A stretch of DNA of 64,000 nt from Draconibacterium sediminis (GTDB lineage Bacteria; Bacteroidota; Bacteroidia; Bacteroidales; Prolixibacteraceae). Positions 5,508 to 60,952 of the stretch are shown here, piece by piece (position 1 is the stretch's first letter; the number at the start of each line of letters is the position of its first letter). The notes under the pieces are model-generated. The model did not search any database and was not told where the DNA came from. It was given only the letters and a program-made list of their open reading frames with translations. The stretch covers positions 248,001-312,000 of the forward strand of contig NZ_JRHC01000003.1 in NCBI RefSeq assembly GCF_000949475.1, written 5' to 3'. A program made the translations under genes and the position numbers.

Positions 5508-5510
5508 AGC

Positions 5511-5552
5511 TGGATGCTGGATACTTGATACTAGATATTTGATACTGGATGT
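5511..5552. repeat. Heptamer repeat array, TGGATRC family, left half
   Basis: Six consecutive degenerate 7-bp units read TGGATGC, TGGATAC, TTGATAC, TAGATAT, TTGATAC, TGGATGT. The array starts four bases after the stop codon of the preceding gene. With the second array at 5609-5643 it flanks a hairpin, and a 25-bp stretch (5527-5551) recurs at 5611-5635 with one mismatch. Confidence 0.85.
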
Positions 5553-49457: not shown

Positions 49458-50168
49458 ATGCCAACAATCAAACAAAAAACCCAACCTAACGAAATAAAAT
49501 CGTCGCGCCCCAACCAACCTGTTGCTTCCTTTTTGCAGGAGGCCGAAAACCTTTATGTATGGTGTATTGATGATATACCTGAGTTGGTAAAAGCCGGTGT
49601 TGATGAGGAAATGATTAACACATTGCCGGAAAATATTAAAGCCTGTCGTGATGCCCAAACGCTATGGAAAAAGAAACTAAAAACTCCGGGCGAAGTACAG
49701 GTGCAATGGAAATTACAGCAGCCGGAGGCCAGTAAATTAGAGGCCGAATTGATTCGTGCCTTGCGTTTTGCCTTTCGGAATAATCCCGATTTATTAGCCA
49801 GGCTAAAATATATTACAAAAGGTAACAGCTACGCAAATCTTATTCAGGACCTGAATGATCTGGCATTACTGGGGCGAAAATACACGCAACTACTTACTGT
49901 TATTGGATTTGATATGGACTTGCTCGACACAGCAACGGCAAAATCGAAAGAGTTGGCCGGTTTGTGGGCACAGACTAAAAACGAAAATGCCCGTTTAAAT
50001 GAAACGGTAGTTGCGCGTAATAAGGCGTTCTGGACCTTACATCAACAAGTTTCGGAACTCCGCGCGGCCGGCCAGTACATCTTCCGCCACCGAAAAGACC
50101 GCTATGTGGGTTATGTTAGCCAATTCTGGAAGAAAAAGAACGGGCGTAGAAGCATCCCCGACAACTAA
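49458..50168 (+). CDS. Hypothetical helical protein
   Basis: A 236-residue protein without signal peptide or membrane segment. It is rich in Lys, Glu, Leu and Ala and looks mostly alpha-helical (KLEAELIRALRFAFRNNPDL and LDTATAKSKELAGLW). The C-terminus is basic (FWKKKNGRRSIPDN), which would suit nucleic-acid contact, but no motif supports this. I do not recognise the family. It has a candidate promoter and is followed at once by the inverted 21-bp repeat array. Confidence 0.7.
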   Translation: MPTIKQKTQPNEIKSSRPNQPVASFLQEAENLYVWCIDDIPELVKAGVDEEMINTLPENIKACRDAQTLWKKKLKTPGEVQVQWKLQQPEASKLEAELIRALRFAFRNNPDLLARLKYITKGNSYANLIQDLNDLALLGRKYTQLLTVIGFDMDLLDTATAKSKELAGLWAQTKNENARLNETVVARNKAFWTLHQQVSELRAAGQYIFRHRKDRYVGYVSQFWKKKNGRRSIPDN

Positions 50169-50176
50169 ATCCCTTT

Positions 50177-50422
50177 CCCTGTGCAAAATATTCATGAGCG
50201 AGCTACTAATATTTAGGTGCGAGCTATATAAATAGTGGTGCGAGTAAGAAATAAATACGTGCGAGCTAAAAATATATACAAGCGAGCTATATATAAATGG
50301 CTGCGAGCTATACTCGCAACTGAATATTAATAGCTCGCATAACGATATTAGTCACTCGCATAGCAATATTAGTAGCTCGCAGGCTATATTTATATACTCG
50401 CAGGGCAATATTGTGTGCAGGG
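50177..50422. repeat. Inverted array of 21-bp GCGAGCTA repeats
   Basis: Six direct units starting with GCGAG occur at 50198, 50219, 50240, 50261, 50282 and 50303, exactly 21 bp apart. The orientation then flips: CTCGC ends units at 50317, 50338, 50359, 50380 and 50401, again every 21 bp. The centre is the palindromic GCGAGCTATACTCGC (50303-50317). Spacers are AT-only or nearly so. Outer 16-bp arms (50177-50192 and 50407-50422) match as reverse complements at 13 of 16 positions. The array begins nine bases after the hypothetical gene's stop codon. Confidence 0.9.
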
Positions 50423-50460
50423 ACGGGTGAAAATGCGAAAACAGAAGTAACATTACTCCA

Positions 50461-50476
50461 CGCGAAGGGATTCGCG
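50461..50476. repeat. Short GC-rich hairpin (REP-like)
   Basis: CGCGAA (50461-50466) pairs with TTCGCG (50471-50476), within a GC-rich block (CGGTAGCGGAGGCCCGGGAG) that contrasts with the AT-rich surroundings. It lies between the 21-bp array and the next gene; 50169-50521 otherwise contains no gene. Confidence 0.5.
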
Positions 50477-50521
50477 CGGTAGCGGAGGCCCGGGAGAATT
50501 AAATGGGGGAGGTTTTGTTTC

Positions 50522-51391
50522 TTATTGGCCGTTTACAAGGTGTAATTGGTTGGTAACTTCCTGGTAAAAGGTTTTTACTTTCTGCCTGTAATCTCCTTCT
50601 CCCAGTGTTTCGATAGGAACGTATCCGCGATATGACGATGCTTTAATGAGATACATAATCCGCTCAAGGTCGGTTTTTACCGGTTCCCCGTTAACATACA
50701 CCTGTTCTTTTAACTGCCAGTTTACGGCGTAGGGTATGCTTGCTTCAATTTGTTGGTAGGGGTCGCCCAAACGATAACTTCCCACATCCAGAACCAGCCC
50801 AAACCATTCGGAATGAATCTCTTCAAATAGTTGTAGGACATGATCTGAAGTTTTAATAAACTGCCAATGGTTTTGGATGGCAACGATTACTCCATGCTCG
50901 GCACCAAACGCAACACATTCGCGGATGGCAGCAATCATCGAATTAAAAATTTCCTGGTTTTCGAACTGTCCCGGATTCGACTGTCCGGCGAAAATGCGCA
51001 GAACCGGTGCGCCCATTTTTTCGGCAGCAATTATCCAGTTTTTCACCAGTTGAATGTTTTCTTCCAACGACTTTGGATCGCCACTGGTAAAATCGTTACG
51101 AACTCCGGTACCACTTATCTCCAGACCCAGTTCATGGGCTTTGCGTTTAACCTTGTAAAGCACCTCGTCGGAGGGAACGGCAGGGTAGCCGGGGAAATAG
51201 TAGGCGGTTAAATCCACCGCATCGAATCCGGTTTCAGCACAAAATTCCAGCAGCTCGTCAAGGTTCATTTGCCCTTCCGAAAGAAGGTGATTAAACGAGT
51301 AGGCATTTAAACTGGTTTTTAATTTTGGCGACTGGGCAAAAAGTAAGGTGGATAAAACAAGGCAGAAAATAACAAGTGCAAAATGTTTCAT
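50522..51391 (-). CDS. Exported sugar phosphate isomerase/epimerase-like TIM barrel protein
   Basis: About 289 residues from the preferred start at 51391 (MKHFALVIF), which gives a signal peptide ending LFA-Q; an upstream in-frame ATG (51442) would bury it. The xylose-isomerase-like/AP-endonuclease-2 fold is visible: LLEFCAETGFDAVDLTAYYF, APVLRIFAGQSNPGQFE, AIQNHWQF and GLVLDVGSYRLGDP, with acidic and His residues at strand ends where metal ligands lie. Exported members are common in Bacteroidota carbohydrate loci, but their substrates are mostly unknown. It is transcribed alone. Confidence 0.85.
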   Translation of the reverse strand: MKHFALVIFCLVLSTLLFAQSPKLKTSLNAYSFNHLLSEGQMNLDELLEFCAETGFDAVDLTAYYFPGYPAVPSDEVLYKVKRKAHELGLEISGTGVRNDFTSGDPKSLEENIQLVKNWIIAAEKMGAPVLRIFAGQSNPGQFENQEIFNSMIAAIRECVAFGAEHGVIVAIQNHWQFIKTSDHVLQLFEEIHSEWFGLVLDVGSYRLGDPYQQIEASIPYAVNWQLKEQVYVNGEPVKTDLERIMYLIKASSYRGYVPIETLGEGDYRQKVKTFYQEVTNQLHLVNGQ

Positions 51392-51524
51392 AATTGTAGG
51401 TTTTAGGCCACGATAAGATAGAAATATTTTACCGAACCGCAATTCGGAATGGAATGGCGTTCTTTACCTTCAAATACAGGAAAAGACAACAATCTGCACA
51501 AATTCCGCAACAAAAATAAAACGC

Positions 51525-60836: not shown

Positions 60837-60911
60837 CTGAATTAATACGGACTTTCAGCCCAATATTTTATTTGATTAAAAGAATAAGCGCTGAAAGTGC
60901 GTAATATTTGA

Positions 60912-60952
60912 GCCCAGGGCAAAGTAATTCAACGAATTACGTCGCCCTGGGT
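60912..60952. repeat. Nested hairpin element, copy 2
   Basis: Outer stem GCCCAGGGC (60912-60920) with GCCCTGGGT (60944-60952), inner stem GTAATTC (60924-60930) with GAATTAC (60934-60940). Between the two copies CTTTCAGC and GCTGAAAG form a further inverted repeat (near 60853 and 60890). Confidence 0.75.

Follow-up and report, generated by a model that had tools for sequence, protein, structure and literature searches.

Several described systems come close to the arrangement considered here. In ParR-parC plasmid centromeres a small protein binds short contiguous repeats. The iterons found at plasmid replication origins are repeats of ~20 bp, placed near two helical turns apart and beside the gene of the protein that binds them. 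REP/BIME sequences are intergenic repeats with a linked gene, RAYT, which encodes a HUH-type tyrosine transposase. In type III toxin-antitoxin loci, tandem RNA repeats lie upstream of an endoRNase toxin gene and are co-transcribed with it. The ParB(omega)-parS system of pSM19035 is reported to need four or more contiguous repeats (PMC9499535), and for KfrA of plasmid RA3 an alpha-helical make-up, oligomerisation and binding to a repetitive operator are described (PMC7783346). BldC of Streptomyces, a MerR-related developmental regulator with a regulon, assembles cooperatively, head to tail, into multimers on direct repeats of DNA, and the abstract of that report describes no array for each paralog's gene (PMC5859096).

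The locus described here lies in a window of 64,000 nucleotides from Draconibacterium sediminis, by which the whole analysed stretch of DNA is meant, and consists of an array of GCGAG repeats just downstream of a gene for a PQLLE-like protein. As in pSM19035 ParB(omega)-parS (PMC9499535), short repeats stand in contiguous arrays and are bound, here by proposal, by a small protein. As with KfrA, the protein encoded beside the repeats is helical, in this case in a model. There are also differences. The pSM19035 system is plasmid-borne and relies on an RHH protein partnered by ParA, whereas no RHH match was found among 23 relatives of the window protein (set A2), and searches of plasmid sequences found no relative of either the window protein or a more distant PQLLE protein (L090); GCGAG-type arrays are instead chromosomal, have two-turn spacing and come with several paralogs that have different cores. 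Unlike the repeats of plasmid-borne KfrA, PQLLE-like arrays are gene-specific and chromosomal. Unlike iterons, they accompany a system without a Rep family match, with many two-arm arrays on the chromosome and several per genome. In contrast to REP/BIME-RAYT, neither the window protein nor its 23 relatives match a transposase or nuclease family in Pfam or NCBIfam, and several sites are common to different species. The best overall explanation, to which a probability of about 0.65 is given, is that the repeats form a helically phased DNA-binding array and that the product of the gene directly upstream binds to it.

Eleven perfect GCGAG cores lie between 50198 and 50401, and all same-strand steps are exactly 21 bp. 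Six of these form the left arm on the forward strand (50198-50307; starts at 50198, 50219, 50240, 50261, 50282 and 50303), while five, reading CTCGC, form the right arm on the reverse strand (50313-50401; starts at 50313, 50334, 50355, 50376 and 50397). The arms meet in a 15-bp palindrome, GCGAGCTATACTCGC, of the form GCGAG-N5-CTCGC (50303-50317), which sets the two cores 10 bp, or one turn, apart. The exact core positions confirm what an initial annotation of this DNA had described, namely 11 units (6 + 5) with strict 21-bp spacing and a palindromic turn. Its remark that the sequence fades at the edges also holds, since the next lattice position has 3/5 core mismatches both on the left (50177-50197) and in the degenerate unit on the right (50402-50422). 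Three in-phase GCGAG cores gave seven matches in the window versus none in 100 dinucleotide shuffles. Period-21 rows of a tandem-repeat scan of the window were confined to this array, where its strongest lag-21 and lag-42 peaks also fall. The array begins 29 bp 3′ of a 236-aa ORF (49458-50168) and occupies a convergent gap of 353 bp between this ORF and a TIM-barrel gene (50522-51442). An Rfam scan gave no match over the array at gathering scores.

Other elements of the window are distinct from the array. A 39-nt GC-rich element at 50458-50496 adjoins it and is single-copy in the window, while ~27-36 nt of this element match many places in the window's genome (G000) and in relatives; judged by these matches, it is a dispersed genus repeat. 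The Acido-Lenti-1 sRNA family matches at 60887-60951 on the reverse strand, with a score of 37.6 against an Rfam gathering score of 37. Heptamer arrays occur as CTGGATA in the window (5510-5550) and as the complement TATCCAG in D. orientale (L258, ~680-780), and are unrelated to the 21-bp array. The suggested link between 21 bp and three times the period of the window's 7-bp arrays does not stand: CTGGATA is a different repeat, and the multiple looks coincidental because the periods of relatives range over 20-22 bp and the D. orientale heptamers are separate loci. Nor does the array appear to be a decayed coding repeat, the alternative named in the initial annotation, as it lies between genes and is preserved in array form in 8 species.

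The gene upstream of the array (49458-50168, forward strand) encodes the 236-aa protein that is proposed to bind it. The protein has no Pfam match at E 0.001, and its score of 37.1 bits against NCBIfam NF052641 (PQLLE) is below the cut-off of 80 and places it outside the family proper. Since 17 of the 23 members of A2 match the same model at E <= 0.01 (best E 2.6e-9), although the window protein itself scores below the cut-off, it is regarded as a distant PQLLE relative. Its AF2 model is all-helical (pLDDT 90.3, pTM 0.71) with two homologous halves; structure comparison of the model returned helical noise with no fold above it, and recognised no known DNA-binding fold. Internal duplication is supported by the halves of L090, which score 119 against each other versus 28 ± 5 when shuffled, and by those of the window-type family (E 1.5e-5). 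When half is aligned with half, the start of a first-half region falls opposite the start of the C-terminal tail. The first-half element (codons about 102-140; 49761-49877, forward strand, residues mapped by alignment) is thus roughly pseudo-symmetric to the basic C-terminal tail (codons about 206-236; 50073-50165, forward strand), the proposed recognition element. No PADLOC or endoRNase Pfam match was found among the 23 relatives, and the three window neighbours scanned by family are pirin, TIM-barrel and TPR proteins. By eye, two distant relatives (L098 and L099) have C-terminal repeats resembling fibronectin type III, which would be odd for a DNA binder.

The link between gene and array, which the initial annotation did not draw, extends well beyond the window. 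A search of 61 genomes found the protein in 22, every one of them within the genus, and many of these genomes carry several paralogs. The 59 ORF hits left 56 usable downstream regions after removal of L073 (too short) and two N-terminal fragments of frame-broken genes, and 53 of the 56 have arrays at lags of 20-22 and multiples. Recurrence of 5-mers over lags 8-69 in these regions rises at 20-22, 39-43 and 61-64, with no upstream peak; lag 21 was observed 1031 times versus 26 expected, and lag 31 shows a slight rise (64 vs 22). No array lies within 400 bp downstream of L064, L072 or L082, and in L203, the same gene as L064, one is found at 416 bp, past an insertion. Similar repeat-like stretches were also seen downstream of L064 and L051, two paralogs of genome G006; that of L064 separates the gene from its array.

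A wider scan with one genome per species yielded 172 relatives, the best 80 of which span Prolixibacteraceae, Reichenbachiella, Aquimarina and others, as well as MAGs whose labels, which may be wrong, include KSB1, Aminicenantes and Acidobacteriota. Among these best 80 of 172, 77 have >200 bp downstream, and 72 of the 77 show 20-22-bp arrays there, a pass being a score of at least 18 at lags 20-22 plus 41-43, a threshold chosen after the scores were seen. The array is upstream instead of downstream in L207, L233 and L242; L183 passes on both sides and is otherwise the only one of 79 upstream regions to pass. L213 and L226 have no array on either side of the gene (2/77 testable relatives), and the same threshold was passed by one of 139 control flanks (L216, score 23). 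Distant PQLLE loci L090-L099, drawn from 11 of 296 genomes with a PQLLE-family match, have a top upstream lag of 21, 42 or 63 in nine of ten cases, with a weak lag in L090 and with L095 as the exception.

The spacing of these arrays is better conserved than their sequence. Periods in relatives are 20, 20.5 (lag 41), 21 and up to 22 bp over many unrelated cores, and across lags 8-69 strong signal is confined to 20-22 and multiples. Comparison of period with sequence in relatives, a check proposed in the initial annotation, thus finds spacing near whole turns retained while cores change, the pattern of a helically phased DNA-binding array. Parsed spacings number 134 at 20 bp, 288 at 21 bp and 27 at 22 bp; these counts are conditioned because the parser, which uses an exact 5-mer and can miss degenerate arms, links only steps of 19-23 or 40-44 bp, so that the lag spectra are the unconditioned evidence. 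The 15-bp junction geometry is exact in all 8 gene-linked orthologous GCGAG arrays, and in 22/22 GCGAG arrays examined the junction cores are one turn apart, with at most one mismatch. Spacer sequence is largely unconstrained in 204 distinct GCGAG units, where T is favoured ahead of the core, A at positions +7 and +13, and A/T from +9 to +15; in 308 CAGG units an A-tract follows the core at a distance of about one turn. In 29 of 65 related arrays read by the same parser the core occurs on a single strand only, a count to which missed degenerate arms may contribute.

Two readings of the exact phase had been offered at the outset: binding of a protein on one face of the DNA, or a long RNA stem. 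Lags of 20-22 over unrelated cores, one-turn junctions and cores that track the protein's tail argue, indirectly, for the first. The second would have the transcribed arms form a long hairpin that acts as a terminator, a processed RNA or an RNA-bound regulator. The RNA fold of the array is indeed stable (z -4.2, with 0/200 shuffles as stable), the palindrome scores terminator-like on the reverse strand, and the forward strand between window gene and array holds no terminator-like site; a z of this size can, however, come from identical cores. Mirrored spacers are complementary at 46% of positions versus 47% for non-mirrored ones (p = 0.76), and since this is no better than background, nothing beyond the cores maintains a stem. 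One-strand arrays, arrays upstream of genes and the 20-22 bp phasing are likewise at odds with an RNA hairpin, as are terminator-like hairpins ahead of the array, detected between gene and array in 13 of 50 parsed genus homologs (by our own detector, with no chance control). The locus also departs from type III toxin-antitoxin organisation, as the array is downstream and inverted and its spacers are without stem selection. An RNA role is thus weakened, and the RNA hairpin is considered very improbable.

One indication that the neighbouring protein itself reads the array is covariation between its tail and the core. Cores differ between paralogs. L043 and L055 have bodies that are 99% identical, while their tails are 58% identical and their cores are ACAGG and CGAGT. 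Within clusters of body identity at least 0.8 (130 pairs), the tail-core partial r is 0.57 (0.565) and that of the next separate window 0.28; the value was reached in 0/1000 permutations, which remove kinship incompletely, and two clusters, with 14 and 8 members, supply 119 of the 130 pairs. Among 94 unique proteins, in pairs of identity at least 0.5, alignment columns 104-150 and the tail (212-243) each correlate with the core once the rest is removed, with partial r of 0.27 for the first-half region and 0.28 for the tail when columns 0-19 are excluded. Inclusion of the N-terminus (700 pairs) puts the first-half window at 112 in first place (0.296) and the tail at 212 in third (0.241), against 0.09 for the N-terminus itself, so the first-half element tracks the core at a partial r of 0.27-0.30 over all pairs. 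For the tail, which was picked as the region of interest after inspection of the data, 0/500 permutations of these pairs reach the observed correlation. An initial 20-aa scan over all pairs had put the variable N-terminus highest (0.24), with the tail at 0.20. L070, whose region had been mis-assigned, and L029, whose core had been mis-parsed as AATATT, were left out of the later tail-core scans, and L070 also of the pairwise comparison of bodies and tails, where the L029/L030 pair is consequently an artefact. The two core-tracking windows occupy like places of the duplicated fold. As far as comparison of natural sequences can tell, the PQLLE-like neighbour protein probably binds the GCGAG array.

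Arrays with the same core are found elsewhere on the chromosome for each of the three core types examined. For GCGAG, locus B (six genomes) lies between what are presumably DUF4924-like and DCC-like genes, locus C (seven genomes) between genes that we take to be MutS-like and topoisomerase-like, and G008 has one further site, all without an adjacent PQLLE-like gene. In D. orientale (G005), five sites carry CAGG arrays and five carry GTGAT arrays, and in either set a single array adjoins its gene; several of these sites are common to different species and others occur in one only. An even sample of 400 kb from this genome contains about 10 arrays, two of which are the gene-linked locus A and locus B, and 9 of which do not adjoin a PQLLE-like gene; in the same sample, each lag of 12-60 outside 20-21 and 41-42 is found at no more than two loci.

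Two ideas on the placement of these arrays were rejected. A single chromosomal territory per paralog is not supported, since the G005 CAGG arrays (0.04, 0.22, 1.98, 4.07 and 4.79 Mb) and GTGAT arrays (1.22, 1.44, 2.50, 3.93 and 5.08 Mb) spread over both sides of the GC-skew extremes, while the GCGAG arrays (2.59, 3.35 and 3.61 Mb) lie on one side of these extremes, which are coarse (20 skew samples). A preference for convergent gaps holds for the window array and locus B, and fails for locus C and the CAGG/GTGAT orphans.

A dispersing repeat family with a helper protein, on the model of REP sequences and RAYT transposases, would account for several same-core intergenic arrays per genome of which one adjoins the gene. 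Synteny between species is nevertheless seen at loci B and C and at several CAGG/GTGAT sites, the gene's own neighbours are partly kept in 8 species, and nuclease and transposase matches are missing, as noted above. A mobile origin was rejected for the same protein family: in addition to the plasmid searches with the window and L090 proteins, phage sequences (searched with L090 only) and viral contigs (searched with A2, hence also for relatives of the window protein) yielded no relative. Dispersal of this kind is accordingly judged quite improbable.

Alternatively, another host protein might bind the array, the PQLLE-like gene being merely linked. Fourteen of 37 genus genomes match the GCGAG pattern, or 11 with real arrays once the stray matches of G018, G023 and G048 are set aside. 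Such arrays are present in 8/8 genus genomes with the ortholog versus 3/29 without it, a contrast from which kinship was not removed. G004, G007 and G013 have GCGAG arrays and no GCGAG-type gene, even by profile search, and these are the main evidence against strict dependence on the gene. Of 10 inner cores, 9, 6 and 6 remain on the lattice in these three, versus a mean of 9.0 for 19 arrays of gene-bearing genomes, where G012 keeps 6 at both arrays and G024 keeps 7 at locus C; the contrast is weak (n = 3) and compatible with slow decay after gene loss. Such gene-less arrays, and the many sampled arrays with no PQLLE-like gene alongside, are what a different binder would predict, yet adjacency of gene and array is near-universal among the relatives tested, in several phyla by label, and cores covary with tails. 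A different binder is therefore held to be improbable. Separately, the reversed control pattern matched seven times in G017, which may point to a further array type whose core is GAGCG.

Three of the 10 sampled D. orientale arrays sit upstream of genes of a second family, DUF6261. Of 19 matches to this family in G000 and G005 (L265-L283), one is a fragment (L282), and 17 of the other 18 have a top upstream lag of 41 or 42 bp, with L272 as the exception. The cores of these arrays are gene-specific and, by eye, palindromic. The window protein does not match DUF6261 (PF19775) at E up to 10, and hhalign detects no homology between the PQLLE-like and DUF6261 families (probability 0.3 of 100). Since the families are not detectably homologous, the four-turn palindromic sites of DUF6261 and the two-turn half-sites of PQLLE-like proteins look like convergent designs.

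Upstream arrays of this kind also suit a view of the repeats as operators, in which a conventional regulator would bind same-core arrays and so govern a small regulon along with its own gene. For instance, orphan arrays lie 183-184 bp before a 1145-aa gene, presumably that of IleRS, in three species. Against this, the window array and those of most relatives are downstream of the gene, some past a terminator-like hairpin, and in the species examined the genes flanking locus B converge. The 17 CAGG/GTGAT orphan gaps (12 codirectional, 4 divergent, 1 convergent) are unremarkable versus 91 background gaps of at least 200 bp each (59 codirectional, 16 divergent, 16 convergent). Operator arrays are on balance unlikely.

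For the preferred helically phased array, the following mechanism is proposed. The 21-bp unit comprises a GC-rich core (GCGAG) and an A/T box about one turn later, and the protein, a pseudo-dimer of two homologous helical halves, would recognise this unit by means of its basic C-terminal tail together with a roughly equivalent first-half element. Proteins could then load side by side on a single face of the DNA into a short nucleoprotein filament whose direction changes at the palindrome, and the complex may serve to mark or shape its few chromosomal sites or to draw them together. As paralogs have different cores, their proteins would be largely orthogonal. With respect to function, architecture is the first choice and transcriptional control its main rival; given binding, the chance that the complex is architectural is put at about even.

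On a wider scale, it is suggested tentatively, at somewhat less than even odds, that Draconibacterium and many other Bacteroidota possess a private address system. Dozens of phased arrays would fall into sets that share a core, each set read by one protein from either of two unrelated helical families (PQLLE-like with 21 bp, DUF6261 with 41/42-bp palindromes), and the orthogonal complexes would organise the chromosome, with specificity residing in a short, exchangeable C-terminal tail. In mostly open-access literature, searched by title and abstract opening and excluding preprints, no pairing of PQLLE-like or DUF6261 proteins with gene-specific phased arrays was found. Because gene, target and code word are adjacent in ~100 natural pairs, the recognition code could be readable by comparison and testable by tail exchange. 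Should the proposal hold, sequence-specific array binding would become the biochemical function of a large set of bacterial proteins that lack annotation; the chromosomes of a major phylum would gain a marking layer not found described in the literature searched; and the families would be a source of orthogonal DNA-binding modules.
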